NCBI GenBank assembly: GCA_020048155.1 | Contig: JAIFMY010000042.1 | Span: 1 to 48,178, forward strand | Reading direction: 5' to 3' | Length of the DNA: 48,178 nt | Source: Bacteroidota bacterium | GTDB taxonomy: Bacteria; Bacteroidota; Bacteroidia; Bacteroidales; DYOH01 | In this document: positions 23,869 to 29,884 of the stretch, in pieces | Layout: each line of letters begins with the position of its first letter | Numbering within the stretch: position 1 is the stretch's first letter | Notes under the pieces: model-generated | What the model was told of the DNA's origin: nothing | Databases searched by the model: none | Seen by the model: only the letters and a program-made list of their open reading frames with translations | Program-made: the position numbers and the translations under genes

Positions 23869-25404
23869 ATGAAAACAAAACTGACCCCTTTTTCTAAGCT
23901 GCTCATAGTAGTGGCCATATTGGCCAGCGTAGCTGTGGCAGTAAAATACCTGAACCTCATAGATTTCAATAAAATAACCCAAAACAATCAAGGTAGCAAT
24001 ACAACCCAGAATTTTGATGCAGAGGGTAAAACCATTCGCATAGGTGTAGTAACCTGGGGTGGATATGCAGGTGGACAATATTTCAACAAAGGCTTTAAAC
24101 CCAATTCTGAATCGCGTTACCTCAAAGAATATGGTTTCAACGTTGAATTCAAAGTAATAGATGATTTCAATGCCTCTCGCGATGCATGGAAAGCCGATGA
24201 AGTTGACTTGCTCTGGACTACCATAGATGCTTATACTACTGAAGCAGCCGGATTGGCTCAATACGACCCCAAAGTAGTGTTCCAGGCCGACTGGTCGCGT
24301 GGTGGTGATGCCATAGTGGTGCGCCGTGGTATTGATAAAGTATCGGATCTGCGTGGCAAAACAGTTGCCTTTGCTGAAATGACACCAAGCCACACTTTCC
24401 TACTTTGGATGCTCGAGGCCGGTGGTCTTAAGTATTCAGATATACAACCTAAAATTGTTGAAAGTGCTATTGATGCGGCAGACTTATTTAAAAAAGGTCA
24501 AGTGGACGCTGCTGTAGTATGGTCGCCTGACGATCAGGACTGTGTGGAAAAAGTAAGTGGAGCAAAAATTTTGCAAAACACCAAAAACGCTTCTCACATC
24601 ATAGCCGACGTATTTATCGCAAAAAAATCGTTTATTGATGCCAATAGGGTAGAGCTGCAAAACCTGATAGAAGGCTGGATGAAAGGCGCTGCCGAAATAA
24701 ATACCTCTGAAGATGCTAAGAAAGAAGCATCTAAGATACTTGCAGTTGGACTCAATATGCCTGAAGATTTTTGTTACAATGCAATCAACAATGTTCGCCT
24801 TTGTACTTATGGCGACAACCGCGTGTTCTTCAATCTCGATGGCAAAACCGATGAGGTTTCGGGTGAGGATATTTACAACCGCATGGAAATAAAATACAAA
24901 GAATTGGGCTATATCAAAGATCGTATACCAAATTGGAGAACCATTACCGACCCATCTTTCATTCGCGACATAGCTACGCTTACTGGTAACGAGCACCTTG
25001 CCGAAGGCAAAGCTACTTTTAATGAAGCTACTGCTGCCGACGAGACTTCCGAAGCCATTGCCTCAAAACCCGTTAGTATTTCTTTCCGTTCCGGCGAATC
25101 TATACTCGACGATAATGCCAAGTATATCATAGACAATGAGTTTCTGCCAATCGCCAAATCTTTTGGCAATGCACGTATACGTATTGAAGGGAATACCGAC
25201 AATGTGGGTAATTATGAAATGAACAAGCAGCTCTCGTTTCAACGTGCCAGTGCAGTGGCCAACTATCTGATAAGCGAACATCATTTCGATAAAAACAGAT
25301 TCATCATAGTAGGGAATGGCCCTGATAAACCACTTGCCGACAATAATACTGCCGATGGCAAAGCCAAAAACAGAAGAACTGATTTTCAGCTTCTGCCTAA
25401 CTGA
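23869..25404 (+). CDS. ABC transporter solute-binding domain fused to an OmpA-like domain
   Basis: A 511-residue envelope protein. An N-terminal hydrophobic segment (LLIVVAILASVAVAVKYL, 11-28) has no lipobox or clear cleavage site, so it is probably an inner-membrane anchor. Residues ~55-375 form a periplasmic binding domain of the taurine/nitrate/phosphonate type (IRIGVVTWGGYAGGQ; DLRGKTVAFAE; VDAAVVWSPDD). A linker leads to a C-terminal OmpA-like domain (~400-511). The two residues that contact diaminopimelate in peptidoglycan in characterised OmpA domains appear kept: Asp444 in EGNTDNVG and Arg459 in LSFQRASAV. The predicted molecule would bind a ligand near the membrane while gripping the cell wall. 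The following permease and ATPase genes complete the transporter. Confidence 0.9.
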   Translation: MKTKLTPFSKLLIVVAILASVAVAVKYLNLIDFNKITQNNQGSNTTQNFDAEGKTIRIGVVTWGGYAGGQYFNKGFKPNSESRYLKEYGFNVEFKVIDDFNASRDAWKADEVDLLWTTIDAYTTEAAGLAQYDPKVVFQADWSRGGDAIVVRRGIDKVSDLRGKTVAFAEMTPSHTFLLWMLEAGGLKYSDIQPKIVESAIDAADLFKKGQVDAAVVWSPDDQDCVEKVSGAKILQNTKNASHIIADVFIAKKSFIDANRVELQNLIEGWMKGAAEINTSEDAKKEASKILAVGLNMPEDFCYNAINNVRLCTYGDNRVFFNLDGKTDEVSGEDIYNRMEIKYKELGYIKDRIPNWRTITDPSFIRDIATLTGNEHLAEGKATFNEATAADETSEAIASKPVSISFRSGESILDDNAKYIIDNEFLPIAKSFGNARIRIEGNTDNVGNYEMNKQLSFQRASAVANYLISEHHFDKNRFIIVGNGPDKPLADNNTADGKAKNRRTDFQLLPN

Positions 25405-25417
25405 TTTTAAAAAGCCA

Positions 25418-25460
25418 GTTTCTGCTTAATCACATGTTGAAAATGGGGTTAGGCAGAAAC
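25418..25460 (+). other. Intra-operon hairpin with two competing 5' arms
   Basis: The 12-bp stem 25418-25429/25449-25460 includes one G-T pair and a 19-nt loop. The 3' arm can also pair perfectly over 10 bp with 25391-25400, which lies inside the end of the preceding coding region. No T run follows, so it is more likely an RNA stability or attenuation element than a terminator. Confidence 0.5.
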
Positions 25461-25489
25461 ATCATATAATATTGTGGTACAGTGAATTG

Positions 25490-25529
25490 AATATGCTCTG
25501 ATAGGTTTCAATATCTTCCGGAGCATATT
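25490..25529 (+). other. Second intra-operon hairpin before the permease gene
   Basis: A 9-bp perfect stem AATATGCTC/GAGCATATT (25490-25498 with 25521-25529) holds an inner GATA/TATC stem. It lies in the 188-bp gap before the permease and has no T run after it. Confidence 0.45.
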
Positions 25530-25592
25530 CTAAACTTTTCAGGATTATTGCATAAAAATCAATTTAAACATTCACCTTAATCACCCAAAAAC

Positions 25593-26885
25593 ATGTTTAG
25601 AGCCTTGTTCAAAATAGGAGGGCAAATAGCAGGCAAGCAGCGGATGATGATTGAAATAATCGGATTCGTTTTTTTTGTATTCATTTGGTGGCTGGTAACC
25701 CATCCTTTTCATAGCCCAAACATACAGTACAATGCTGTTGGCGGGCAAGCACCATATAAGTTCGAGTTGAAAGGCCCTGGTGGTTTTTCATATACTTCCG
25801 ACGGAAATTCCGTTGCAGGTAGTTTGGCTACAGGTTCTTATACACTTAGTGTTACAGATGGCAACGGTGCCAAAAATTTGCTGAAACTGGATGTGAAAAC
25901 CGACTCTACCTACACCACGGTAGATACAGCAGCCAATACACCGGGTATACGTGCAGATATTTCCATCCGAAAACCATTTATAAACCCCGGAATTCTACCT
26001 TCACCTGGAGATGTACTTTATTCGTTCAAAACTTTGAGTGCTGAAAAAGTAAACGTAAAACTTTCAGAAAATTTTCAGATTAGCGACGATGTGCTTAAGC
26101 AACTAGCTAAAGACAGTATACCAACTGAAGTAATAAACAAGCTGAAACCATTGGTAGGAAAATCTTTTTCGAGCAATGATGAACTGACTACTGCATTAAA
26201 TGACATACTTACACCTGCACAAACCGAAGATTTTAGTTATCAGATAGTAAATGGCTCGTTCGTAGGCAGCTATATGGGCGTGAGCAGTTTGGTTTTCAAT
26301 ACTTCGTATTCCATCATGCTCAACATACTTGGCTATTTGTGGGCTATAGTTCTGAGCCTTATGGTAGGTTTCCTGATTGCTTTGGTACCTTTTTTCAGAG
26401 GTTTGCTCAGCCGCTATATTGATGCTGTAAGGTTTATACCGCTGGCTGCTGTCACAGGCTTATTCATAGCATGGTTTGGTATAGAACTAAACATGAAACT
26501 ACAGTTCCTTGCGTTTGGTATATTCGTATTCCTGTTGCCAGTAGTAGTGCAACGTATCGATGAAGTAGACAGGGTTTACAAGCAAACAGCTTTTACGTTG
26601 GGAGCCACCGACTGGCAAATGGTTCGTTTTGTGTACTGGCCCAGTGTTATTTCTAAACTCATAGACGATATGCGCGTGCTTACAGCCATTTCATGGACCT
26701 ATATAATAGTAGCCGAAACCGTAAACAAGGACAACGGGATTGGTGCCCTCATATTCACTGCACGTCGCCACAGCCGCCTCGATGAAGTTTTTGCACTCTT
26801 GCTGCTCATCATCATCATCGGTTTTGTACAAGACCTTTTATTTACTTGGATAGACAAAAAAGTGAACCCGCATAAATACGCATAG
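25593..26885 (+). CDS. ABC transporter permease with periplasmic SprB-like insertion
   Basis: A 430-residue inner-membrane permease of the SsuC/TauC/nitrate type (BPD_transp_1). The first helix (~21-38) is followed not by the usual short loop but by ~90 extra residues. Residues ~45-102 (NAVGGQAPYKFEL, GSLATGSYTLSVTDGNGAKN) match the pattern of SprB-type Ig-like repeats found in large secreted Bacteroidota adhesins. The normal permease motif ILPSPGDVLYSF appears only at 134-145 and is followed by a second helical insertion (~150-225). The membrane core then proceeds normally from ~232, with the EAA-type cytoplasmic loop TLGATDWQMVRFVYWPSV (335-352) that docks the ATPase. The family is usually ~250-280 residues long. 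It is 3 bp before the ATPase gene. Confidence 0.9.
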   Translation: MFRALFKIGGQIAGKQRMMIEIIGFVFFVFIWWLVTHPFHSPNIQYNAVGGQAPYKFELKGPGGFSYTSDGNSVAGSLATGSYTLSVTDGNGAKNLLKLDVKTDSTYTTVDTAANTPGIRADISIRKPFINPGILPSPGDVLYSFKTLSAEKVNVKLSENFQISDDVLKQLAKDSIPTEVINKLKPLVGKSFSSNDELTTALNDILTPAQTEDFSYQIVNGSFVGSYMGVSSLVFNTSYSIMLNILGYLWAIVLSLMVGFLIALVPFFRGLLSRYIDAVRFIPLAAVTGLFIAWFGIELNMKLQFLAFGIFVFLLPVVVQRIDEVDRVYKQTAFTLGATDWQMVRFVYWPSVISKLIDDMRVLTAISWTYIIVAETVNKDNGIGALIFTARRHSRLDEVFALLLLIIIIGFVQDLLFTWIDKKVNPHKYA

Positions 26886-26888
26886 GCT

Positions 26889-27698
26889 ATGGGAGTAGAA
26901 TTTATAAATACCGATTTACCAGATATAATTGATCTGAAGGGAATTTCGCAGACATATGACGGGGGAAAAAGCTACGTTATCAACGATTTTAATTTGCTTA
27001 TTGAAGATAAGCCCGAAACTGGCCAATTTGTAGTGCTGTTAGGGCCTTCGGGTTGCGGAAAGTCTACTGTGCTCAGGTACATAGCTGGTTTGCAACACCC
27101 TTCTTCCGGCGAAATTATTATCAAAAACAAGCCGCTTTCCGATAAAGATCGTATTGGAATGGTCTTTCAGATGTATTCTTCTTATCCTTGGATGACTGTA
27201 CTCGAAAACGTAGCCCTAGGCTTGCGTTTCAAAGGTATGGGCAAGGAAGAGCGTACCCAGAAAGCTATGGATATGATTAAAATAGTTGGACTGGAAGGGC
27301 ATGAAAAGAAATTTGCAAAGTATCCTACATTATCCGGAGGCCAGTTACAACGTGTGGCTATAGCCCGCAGCTTACTAGTGAACAATGAGATTATACTCAT
27401 GGACGAACCTTTTGGTGCACTCGATACCAAAACCCGACTTACCATGCAGGATTTCATGATTGACCTGTGGGAAAAGGTAAAACCTACCATCATACTCGTC
27501 ACTCACGACATTTCGGAAGCTGTGTACCTAGCCGACGATATATATATGATGGGCACTGCACCGAGCAATATAGTTGAACATGTGGCTGTAAACTTGCCAT
27601 TTCATCGCGACCGAACCATTAAGCGCGAAAAGACATTTGTAGACTTAGTAAACTACGTGGAAGACCGAATGATGAAAATTGCAGGTGGCGAAAAATAG
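26889..27698 (+). CDS. ABC transporter ATPase (SsuB/TauB/NrtD type)
   Basis: The 269-residue nucleotide-binding subunit energises the permease encoded 3 bp upstream. All motifs are intact: Walker A GPSGCGKST, Q-loop VFQMYSSYPW, signature LSGGQLQRVAIARSL, Walker B IILMDEPFGALD and H-loop VTHDISEA. The Q-loop PW-x-TVLENV pattern is typical of taurine/sulfonate/nitrate importers. It is the last gene of the operon and is followed by a strong terminator. There is no fused regulatory domain. Confidence 0.95.
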   Translation: MGVEFINTDLPDIIDLKGISQTYDGGKSYVINDFNLLIEDKPETGQFVVLLGPSGCGKSTVLRYIAGLQHPSSGEIIIKNKPLSDKDRIGMVFQMYSSYPWMTVLENVALGLRFKGMGKEERTQKAMDMIKIVGLEGHEKKFAKYPTLSGGQLQRVAIARSLLVNNEIILMDEPFGALDTKTRLTMQDFMIDLWEKVKPTIILVTHDISEAVYLADDIYMMGTAPSNIVEHVAVNLPFHRDRTIKREKTFVDLVNYVEDRMMKIAGGEK

Positions 27699-27731
27699 CT
27701 CGTTTTATGTACACAAATGAATATAAACTAA

Positions 27732-27768
27732 CATCCCGAAAGTATTAAAGCTTTCGGGATGTTTTTTT
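27732..27768 (+). terminator. Strong intrinsic terminator of the ABC operon
   Basis: A perfect 11-bp GC-rich stem (27732-27742 with 27751-27761), an 8-nt loop and seven T follow. It lies 33 bp after the ATPase stop codon. Confidence 0.92.
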
Positions 27769-27811: not shown

Positions 27812-28510
27812 TCAGCTCAAAAATGCTTCTGGTTTGCCCATATCACGCCACTGATAGTCGCTGATGTCGTAACCCAGAATTTTATCGCTATTTCGCATTC
27901 GCAGGTACATGTTTATGATACTAAACTTACCTTTTTCTTCTATCATATCAAAAATGCGGTTGTTGAGTATGTGAATGCCACTAAAAGCGTATTTACGGAA
28001 AAAAGGTGAATTTATATCCGTGATTTTTTCGTTGGTGAAGGTATTCATCCAACCCCGCAAAAGCATACTTTCGTCGAAAAGCAGGTAGCGACTTGTTTCG
28101 CGGCGCTGCACAGCCAGGGTAGCAAGTGCATTGGTTTCGGTGTGCTGTTTTATAAGATTCGAAATTGGAAAATTCGTAAGCACATCAACATTATAAATCA
28201 GGAAATTGCTCGTACTATTGAGTATATCTTGCGCTTTAAGTATAGCACCACCAGTATCTAGTAGTTTGTCACTTTCATCGCTTATTACTATTTCAAGTCC
28301 AAAATTGTTGTTTTTATCCAAAAAAGATAATATTTGCTCGGCAAAATGATGCACATTAATTACAAAAGATTGTATTCCTTCGGAAGCAAGTTTCATGATA
28401 GCGAGTTCAAGCAGGGTTTTGCCCTGATAGGCGACCAAAGCTTTGGGGGTATTGCTTGTGAGCGGTCCAAGTCTGGTACCTAAACCTGCTGCGAGTATAA
28501 AAGCTTTCAT
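27812..28510 (-). CDS. MurU-like sugar-1-phosphate nucleotidyltransferase
   Basis: A 232-residue GT-A-fold nucleotidyltransferase. The nucleotide-binding loop AAGLGTRLGPLT and the lysine in TPKALV are at the N-terminus; DTGGAI and the metal-binding aspartate in YNVDVL follow, and the end reads WRDMGKPEAF. Overall pattern and length match MurU, which makes UDP-MurNAc from MurNAc-1-phosphate, better than longer glucose- or mannose-1-phosphate transferases. Its start overlaps the preceding RapZ-domain gene by four bases (ATGA), and an AmgK-like kinase heads the operon. AmgK plus MurU is the known anabolic peptidoglycan recycling pair of pseudomonads, so a similar role is inferred here. Confidence 0.85.
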   Translation of the reverse strand: MKAFILAAGLGTRLGPLTSNTPKALVAYQGKTLLELAIMKLASEGIQSFVINVHHFAEQILSFLDKNNNFGLEIVISDESDKLLDTGGAILKAQDILNSTSNFLIYNVDVLTNFPISNLIKQHTETNALATLAVQRRETSRYLLFDESMLLRGWMNTFTNEKITDINSPFFRKYAFSGIHILNNRIFDMIEEKGKFSIINMYLRMRNSDKILGYDISDYQWRDMGKPEAFLS

Positions 28511-28896
28511 AAACTCAATTCACTATGTATTATTGAAATATGCAAATCTTCAGAAACTGCTAGTTGAGCGGCTATCCACTCTGTAGCATAAACCGACCGG
28601 TGCCTGCCACCTGTGCAACCATAGGCTACGCTGAGGTTAGAATACTTTCGTTGCTTATATTTTTCGATGGCAGAAAGTATAATTTTAAGGGTTTGTTTCA
28701 AAAACAGATCCATTTCGGGATCATTTTTAAAAAAATCTTTAATTTGCTCATCTTTACCAGTATATCCTTTTAGACTGTCTATCAGACCCGGATTTTCAAT
28801 AAATCGGCAATCGAATACAAACCCCCCCCCGTGTCCGGATACATCAATAGGTATGCCCTTTCTGTATGAAAAACTAATCACATTTACCCTAACCAT
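28507..28896 (-). CDS. Stand-alone RapZ C-terminal domain protein
   Basis: A 129-residue protein equal to only the C-terminal domain of RapZ; the N-terminal P-loop kinase-like half is absent. The domain hallmark GCTGGRHRSV is present, as is GHGGGFVFDCRFIENPG near the N-terminus. In E. coli this domain binds glucosamine-6-phosphate and controls small RNAs of amino-sugar synthesis. Here it lies in an operon between an AmgK-like sugar kinase (4-bp gap) and a MurU-like transferase (4-bp overlap), which suggests amino-sugar sensing or processing. The three glycines are encoded by nine consecutive G (28822-28830 on the plus strand as C), an unusual run for this AT-rich genome and a possible slippage site. 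Confidence 0.88.
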   Translation of the reverse strand: MVRVNVISFSYRKGIPIDVSGHGGGFVFDCRFIENPGLIDSLKGYTGKDEQIKDFFKNDPEMDLFLKQTLKIILSAIEKYKQRKYSNLSVAYGCTGGRHRSVYATEWIAAQLAVSEDLHISIIHSELSL

Positions 28897-28900
28897 CGTC

Positions 28901-29884
28901 TTAGCTCAATTGATTGATTATTTTATATAATTCAGACAAATTTATATAGGTTTTTGCTGATTCGGTAACTTTTTTTAAGTTTTTCAATGCTATTTCTATA
29001 CTGCTCATAAAGTGTGGTTTACGCTCAATAATACCCCTTAGCCCATAGGCGCCTAGTGTTTGTAAAATTCTGAGTAAAGCAAACATGTAGTATTCGTGTT
29101 CGAAGGATGTGTTTTTGTTCACTTCTACAGGCAATTGCCGGCTATAAAACTCAGCCATGCGCAACCTGAAATCATCGCTAAGGTTTGCTTTTGCTTGAAA
29201 TAGCAGCGAAACTAAATCGTACCATGGATTTCCCTTTCGTCCACCCTGGTAGTCAATGAAATAAAATTTGCCGGCATGCTGCATGATGTTTCTTGCCTGA
29301 AAATCGCGGTACATAAACGATTTTAGCTCAAACCGTTGCAAATGAGCAATGAGCTTATCAAAATCTTGTTCCAGTTTCAGTTCGTTGTATGTGATATTGC
29401 ACAATTTGAGATAATTGTATTTAAAATAATTCAAATCCCACTTCATGGCCATGGCATCAAATTCCTTTACCGGATAAGCAGACTCAAACGGGAAATAGGG
29501 TAGCCCTGAGAACTGAAATTGAATGAGTTGCTCAAGAACCTGCTCATACATTCCTGCTTTTTCCGTTTCAGAAACCTGGCTGATCAAGTCTAAGAAATGG
29601 ATATTTCCCAAGTCCTCAATCATGCAAAACTTTTTGTCGGTACTCGTGTGGTATAGCCTAGCAATATGCAGGTTATATTTCTCGAAATGATGAGTAAAAG
29701 ATATATACGCTTCATTTTCGTCAGCATGCTCGTTGTACGAAACCAGAAAACTGGTACCATGCGGGTTAAAAATACGATAATACCTTTTATCAGATCCCGA
29801 AGGAGGAATAAGTTCCCATGAGTGCGCTTTTTCCTTAGTAGATTGTTCGTAAAATTCCAGAATTTGAGAGGGTTCAATATTCAT
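28901..29884 (-). CDS. AmgK-like sugar kinase of the aminoglycoside phosphotransferase fold
   Basis: A 327-residue kinase. The N-terminal motif PPSGSDKRYYRIF resembles the AmgK-type 'GDASxRRYfR' loop. The catalytic loop MYRDFQARNIM supplies the Asp and Asn, and FIDYQGGRKGNPWYDLVSLL is the metal-binding Asp plus the segment characteristic of AmgK ('IDFQDA..GP..YDL.SLL'). AmgK phosphorylates MurNAc and GlcNAc at the anomeric position. Sugar phosphorylation for peptidoglycan recycling is inferred from this and from the downstream RapZ-domain and MurU-like genes. It heads the operon. No consensus promoter was found in the 143-bp divergent region 29885-30027. Confidence 0.85.
   Translation of the reverse strand: MNIEPSQILEFYEQSTKEKAHSWELIPPSGSDKRYYRIFNPHGTSFLVSYNEHADENEAYISFTHHFEKYNLHIARLYHTSTDKKFCMIEDLGNIHFLDLISQVSETEKAGMYEQVLEQLIQFQFSGLPYFPFESAYPVKEFDAMAMKWDLNYFKYNYLKLCNITYNELKLEQDFDKLIAHLQRFELKSFMYRDFQARNIMQHAGKFYFIDYQGGRKGNPWYDLVSLLFQAKANLSDDFRLRMAEFYSRQLPVEVNKNTSFEHEYYMFALLRILQTLGAYGLRGIIERKPHFMSSIEIALKNLKKVTESAKTYINLSELYKIINQLS

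Follow-up and report, generated by a model that had tools for sequence, protein, structure and literature searches.

RapZ has been studied as an enterobacterial sRNA adaptor. The C-terminal domain of E. coli RapZ is a dimer, and its C-X5-R-S loop binds sulphate and malonate (PMC5737377). The domain binds glucosamine-6-phosphate (GlcN6P), for which RapZ has nanomolar affinity, and full-length RapZ is described as unresponsive to Glc6P and GlcN (PMC7073468). Replacement of C247 with either alanine or serine abolishes the function of E. coli RapZ, a loss that was termed unexpected for serine and for which the authors suggest a possible catalytic thiol; the C247 variants are also without RNA binding, and the GlcN6P crystal probably contained a transformed product (PMC9841335). 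HpaP of Xanthomonas (Cui 2018), a protein described as having ATPase and phosphatase activities, is cited together with RapZ homologues in PMC7073468.

The MupP-AmgK-MurU recycling pathway of Pseudomonas and Caulobacter shares with the locus described here an anomeric kinase beside a nucleotidyltransferase, for which AmgK and MurU are the nearest families. Tannerella forsythia, a member of the same phylum as the organism considered here, possesses the same two enzymes, and E. coli carrying T. forsythia AmgK and MurU served as the positive control for labelling with a MurNAc probe (PMC13041923). T. forsythia differs in having MurK and MurQ and no predicted AnmK (PMC7670621). The MurNAc salvage route bypasses the fosfomycin target (PMC5371407), and gut and oral Bacteroidota that possess the module may therefore differ in their response to cell-wall antibiotics. 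A literature search covering few subscription papers returned no paper naming RapZ together with AmgK, none naming RapZ with 'protein tyrosine phosphatase', and none naming it with 'phosphotransferase' and 'peptidoglycan recycling'. The partnership between the RapZ C-terminal domain (RapZ_C) and an AmgK-like kinase is real and widespread and, within the literature covered, apparently undescribed.

The locus and its gene products

The window, which is the whole stretch of DNA that was analysed (48,178 nucleotides), contains on its reverse strand three genes identified from their open reading frames and from Pfam matches, with NCBIfam matches in addition for the two enzymes. These genes encode an AmgK-like sugar kinase with an APH fold (28901..29884; 327 aa), a lone RapZ_C (28507..28896; 129 aa) and a MurU-like nucleotidyltransferase (27812..28510; 232 aa). 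The ORF coordinates agree with the first-pass annotation of this DNA, which had described a 4-bp gap and a 4-bp overlap; the gap (28897-28900) separates the first two genes, and the overlap (28507-28510) joins the last two.

The kinase matches APH (PF01636; E 4.4e-10, 40.2 bits against a cut-off of 23.2), retains conserved R-D-F-x-x-x-N and I-D-x-Q motifs, and has 3csv as its nearest solved chain (E 1.2e-12). Its best NCBIfam family is AmgK (NF045759), where its 72.4 bits lie below the equivalog cut-off of 550; NF045698 is likewise matched below cut-off, with 46.5 of 500 bits. The AmgK models, of 324 and 360 positions, leave no room for RapZ_C, which here is fused or linked to the kinase. The transferase matches NTP_transferase (PF00483; E 2.5e-24, above the cut-off), and MurU (NF045761) is the best of 40 NCBIfam families for it, at 124 of 250 bits and so below the equivalog cut-off. 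Solved chains matched by the transferase include 4y7t, named 'Nucleotidyl transferase' (E 2.2e-19), and 8hhd, named MurU (E 1.9e-16), and further matches are to mannose-1-P and glucose-1-P transferases. Of the AmgK-like and MurU-like labels given in the first-pass annotation, the assignment to the nearest family stands, and the scores remain under the curated cut-offs. Reading the two enzymes as AmgK and MurU is nonetheless likely, and their similarity to these families suggests that they act on MurNAc. The three genes probably form a salvage module for MurNAc, and possibly also for GlcNAc, in which AmgK would make MurNAc-1-P and MurU would make UDP-MurNAc.

The 129-aa protein matches RapZ_C (PF22740; E 9.6e-34, above the cut-off) over residues 3-127 and is the only RapZ_C copy in the window genome. 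It has in common with E. coli RapZ and B. subtilis YvcJ the fold of the C-terminal domain and the C-X5-R-S phosphate loop, and differs from them in having no N-terminal kinase-like domain with its Walker motif. The search for that domain (PF03668) was empty in the one window genome (3.9 Mb in 251 contigs, with a completeness of 91%), and no full-length RapZ was found elsewhere in it. The earlier observation that the kinase-like half of RapZ is missing thus holds genome-wide, and the associated proposal of a role independent of that half is supported. An AF2 model of the protein (pLDDT 94.4) superimposes on E. coli RapZ-CTD (5o5s) with Z 20.9 and rmsd 1.2 over 122 residues, and RapZ_C is accordingly modelled with the same fold.

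The C-X5-R-S loop (28594..28617, reverse strand) is encoded by codons 94-101 of RapZ_C, reads C-T-G-G-R-H-R-S and corresponds to C247-S254 of E. coli RapZ. The C, H, R and S of this loop are invariant in all 132 rows of an alignment reduced from 141 by removing duplicates and rows of fewer than 90 residues. Just one of 126 RapZ_C ORFs is without the motif, and that ORF is truncated by a contig end; the 899 other ORFs of these loci contain 34 matches in 328,813 residues, or 0.10 per 1000. A C-X5-R-S/T loop is the signature of cysteine-dependent phosphatases. RapZ_C shares with the PTP-type enzymes the succession of strand, C-X5-R-S loop and helix at an oxyanion site, as judged from the AF2 model and from the E. 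coli sulphate site. Their fold is absent from the Foldseek and VIA lists for the RapZ_C model, and a global PTP fold was provisionally set aside for that reason; the best VIA rows other than RapZ are polynucleotide kinase and PFK (Z ~6), which are no better than a common arrangement.

Four of the five pocket residues of E. coli RapZ (H190, T248, G249, H252 and R253) are conserved in the window RapZ_C. By alignment, the His190 position falls at codon 37 (28786..28788, reverse strand) and is Gly, as in 127 of 128 kinase-linked rows; the four canonical rows have H, H, N and Y. Kinase-linked domains further differ from E. coli RapZ and B. subtilis YvcJ by a Gly-Gly-Gly insertion (28822..28830, reverse strand; codons 23-25), which occurs in 126-127 of the 128 kinase-linked rows and in none of the four canonical ones.

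Co-occurrence and fusion of the kinase and RapZ_C

RapZ_C was found in 20 of 148 sampled genomes of the phylum, fused in frame to the kinase in 16 and adjacent to it in 4; a MurU-like gene then follows in 15 of these 20 loci, and canonical RapZ is not represented among them. Searching the same 148 genomes with the kinase (query A3) gave 50 matches, of which 21 are close and 29 distant, the latter all in a single family (f16). Twenty of the 21 close-kinase genomes carry RapZ_C (Fisher p 8e-24, a value that overstates independence because the genomes are related). From a second sample of 253 genomes of another class, three weak kinase matches (G188, G293 and G311; E 1.5e-5 to 7e-4) were removed before counting, which left 66 genomes with a credible kinase; 58 of these were additional to the first sample, and RapZ_C is present in 57 of the 58. 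When both samples are pooled, 77 of 79 close-kinase genomes have RapZ_C, and the two exceptions (G009 and G342) belong to one genus. Co-occurrence over the 148 and 58 genomes rules out chance neighbours. RapZ_C is a near-obligate partner of this kinase, as co-occurrence and fusion show. The first-pass annotation had placed the two together in a salvage setting on the basis of this locus, and the link is borne out both by the pooled counts and by the abundance of fusions in relatives.

Families f36 and f40 encode RapZ_C in a frame of its own (130-170 aa), located apart from the kinase in all 25 kinase genomes, as exemplified by G169, where the kinase lies at C2:873614 and RapZ_C at C2:326112. 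MurU-like genes are present in these genomes as well, and a search of 30 genomes detected such a gene in every one. Directly after the lone RapZ_C, 17 of the 25 loci of these families (L149-L168, L184-L188) have an MFS transporter gene, identified by a PF07690 match only and with no NCBIfam name; its substrate is perhaps a muropeptide or an amino sugar. In 8 of the 9 loci read from family f16 (L122-L130), the distant AmgK-like kinase lies beside a longer MurU-like protein (~310-320 aa); the family is without RapZ_C, AnmK and MurQ. In genus g34 (L121, L182-L183), a tandem pair of the close kinase and MurU occurs in genomes where RapZ_C has no match, which makes the genus a natural test case.

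A named search gave 586 confirmed matches, of which the best 80 were kept; these 80 loci over-represent fusions, since the query (A2) consisted of fused proteins only and since just the best matches were retained. The best 80 come from Bacteroidales, Chitinophagales, Saprospirales, Ignavibacteria, Calditrichia, Elusimicrobia, Acidobacteria, Gemmatimonadales and Delongbacteria. Among them are Phocaeicola plebeius, Parabacteroides chinchillae, Bacteroides timonensis and a Tannerella MAG (L065) that has both the fusion and the transferase. Taken with the 20 phylum loci, 95 of the 100 are fused and 5 split, and a MurU-like gene follows in 68, does not follow in 28, and has no room in 4, so the transferase neighbour seen in the window recurs widely. 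Some genomes carry both canonical RapZ and the kinase-linked domain: among 14 named genomes, four (two of Acidobacteria and two of Elusimicrobia; L131-L134, L145-L148) have a frame of canonical length (294-350 aa) alongside the fusion. Since the two coexist, kinase-linked RapZ_C is a branch of its own, and this branch is marked by the Gly-Gly-Gly insertion and by Gly at the His190 position.

When a kinase tree of 124 tips is rooted on f16 and its tips are scored as fused, adjacent, unlinked or none, 8 state changes are required, compared with at least 25 in 200 shuffles. The window kinase falls within a 73-tip clade (support 0.95; nearer nodes weakly supported) in which 66 tips are fused. The adjacent-gene states (the window; L019 and L020; L007; L045) and the loss in G009 and G342 all lie inside the fused part of the tree. 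Given this nesting, the lone RapZ_C of the window is most simply explained by a fission that left the two genes adjacent, and the separate genes of the window probably arose secondarily from the common fused form. The other candidate explanation, a frameshift artefact in a true fusion, was rejected as less likely than a real split because RapZ_C has its own ATG (at 28896, 4 bp past the kinase stop and in a different frame from the kinase), because a kinase-model match extending beyond the end of the kinase runs into two stop codons, and because other genomes (L007, L019, L020 and L045) also contain split pairs. A predicted structure of the fusion (pLDDT 90.5, pTM 0.71) is confident for the domains and carries no information on how they meet.

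A proposed role for RapZ_C in MurNAc salvage

AnmK converts anhydro-MurNAc to MurNAc-6-P, and AmgK needs free MurNAc. The window genome has AnmK, and MurQ was not detected in it; MurQ was counted as present at E <1e-50, weaker matches probably being GlmS SIS domains. MupP of the Pseudomonas/Caulobacter pathway was not detected among the 4 HAD proteins scanned in the window genome, the best of which scored 27.2 of 359 bits (NF009696); the 4 come from 6 HAD_2 matches, the other two being short matches in small contigs that were left out. A 6-phosphatase between AnmK and AmgK is therefore missing, and RapZ_C is a candidate for this step in lineages without MurQ or MupP.

We put at roughly 0.4 the probability that RapZ_C is a cysteine-dependent amino-sugar-phosphate phosphatase that acts on MurNAc-6-P as the partner of AmgK. 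The thiol of Cys94 in the C-X5-R-S loop would take off the 6-phosphate of the MurNAc-6-P that AnmK produces, and free MurNAc would then be handed to AmgK, often inside one fused polypeptide, for conversion to MurNAc-1-P and, by MurU, to UDP-MurNAc. RapZ_C would stand in for the HAD enzyme MupP, which does this job in Pseudomonas. The presence of RapZ_C in nearly all close-kinase genomes, including the 25 of f36 and f40 where the gene is unlinked, is consistent with this proposal, as are the invariance of C, H, R and S in a motif that is rare in other ORFs and the coincidence of the loop with the E. coli sulphate site (PMC5737377). The inactive C247 variants, the suggested thiol and the probably transformed GlcN6P of E. 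coli RapZ (PMC9841335) also point to chemistry, and the phosphatase activity described for HpaP agrees with it.

The distribution of AnmK argues in the same direction up to a point. Among the 148 genomes, all 7 that have AnmK and not MurQ carry RapZ_C, compared with 8 of the 97 that have both. Among kinase-bearing genomes, RapZ_C is present in 59 of 59 with AnmK (one AnmK match, in G254, is a contig-edge fragment), and the 31 genomes without RapZ_C are all without AnmK; these 31 come from two lineages only, family f16 and genus g34, and the correlation therefore includes few independent events. Of the 77 RapZ_C genomes, 17 carry MurQ and 60 do not. A real difficulty is that 18 of the 77, from 13 genera, are without AnmK, which rules out AnmK-made MurNAc-6-P as the only reason to keep RapZ_C. 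Further points against a phosphatase are that the invariant Cys is common to canonical RapZ, which binds GlcN6P with nanomolar affinity (PMC7073468), that no PTP-type fold was listed by Foldseek or VIA, and that the loss of RNA binding may itself explain the defect of the C247 variants (PMC9841335). Promiscuous HAD phosphatases could also fill the step, and one of HxpB type is present in the window genome.

It is possible, and nearly as credible, that RapZ_C is instead a metabolite sensor whose ligand, GlcN6P or another amino-sugar phosphate, is bound but not turned over, and which tunes AmgK so that salvage proceeds when precursor is scarce. The selectivity described for full-length E. coli RapZ (PMC7073468), the modelled fold, the 16 fusions among the 20 phylum loci and the retention of RapZ_C in genomes without AnmK all agree with sensing. 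Other observations weigh against it: the Gly that replaces His190 in 127 of 128 domains suggests that the ligand may be something other than GlcN6P; the Cys, which looks catalytic, is invariant; the f36 and f40 genes, which lie far from the kinase and often before an MFS gene, are a less natural arrangement for an allosteric domain; and the AmgK/MurU pairs of f16 and g34 manage without RapZ_C. The first-pass annotation had suggested a sensor domain that may regulate or assist salvage. A sensor is still a possible reading, perhaps with a ligand other than GlcN6P, and a role confined to sensing sits uneasily with the inactive C247S variant and the probably transformed product of E. coli RapZ (PMC9841335). 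We lean slightly towards catalysis, which fits the observations at least as well.

If RapZ_C is the phosphatase proposed above, a MupP-less UDP-MurNAc recycling pathway would exist in Bacteroidota, Acidobacteria, Elusimicrobia, Calditrichia and other groups. More speculatively, and on balance doubtfully, RapZ C-terminal domains in general might be thiol enzymes acting on amino-sugar 6-phosphates, by dephosphorylation or by some other conversion, with the AmgK-linked branch as the MurNAc-6-P phosphatase and the GlcN6P sensing and RNA-adaptor functions of E. coli RapZ built upon that ancient activity. The widespread natural fusion to a peptidoglycan-salvage kinase predicts the class of ligand that RapZ_C binds.

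An improbable alternative is that RapZ_C is a structural partner, a dimer that holds an AmgK oligomer together or passes substrate to it, with the loop binding a phosphate of the substrate or of ATP and contributing neither signal nor catalysis. The dimer of E. coli RapZ-CTD (PMC5737377), the frequency of fusion and the branch-specific Gly-Gly-Gly insertion, which may be a contact, would fit this arrangement, but a purely structural part would need no invariant C-X5-R-S loop and would not be expected to survive unlinked to the kinase. Slightly less probable still is an anomeric kinase and NDP-sugar pyrophosphorylase for a sugar other than MurNAc, which the scores below the AmgK and MurU cut-offs and the mannose-1-P and glucose-1-P transferase matches would allow, but against which stand the best NCBIfam matches, the MurU-like gene in every genome searched, the Tannerella MAG, the use of T. 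forsythia AmgK, not necessarily fused, and MurU in MurNAc labelling (PMC13041923), and the many RapZ_C genomes without MurQ.

Other features of the window

The conserved Gly-Gly-Gly of RapZ_C is encoded by a run of nine G (28822-28830, reverse strand), and it is conceivable that this tract could slip, giving rise to sequencing frame errors or to phase switching. A terminator-like hairpin (27730..27763), which forms a 14-pair stem with a T tail on the forward strand and a 13-pair stem on the reverse strand, lies between the 3' end of the operon and a convergent ABC-transporter gene. The ABC transporter genes (23869-27698, forward strand) encode an ATPase, a permease with a long N-terminal extension, and a substrate-binding protein of the NMT1/phosphonate-binding type (511 aa) that has a C-terminal OmpA domain.
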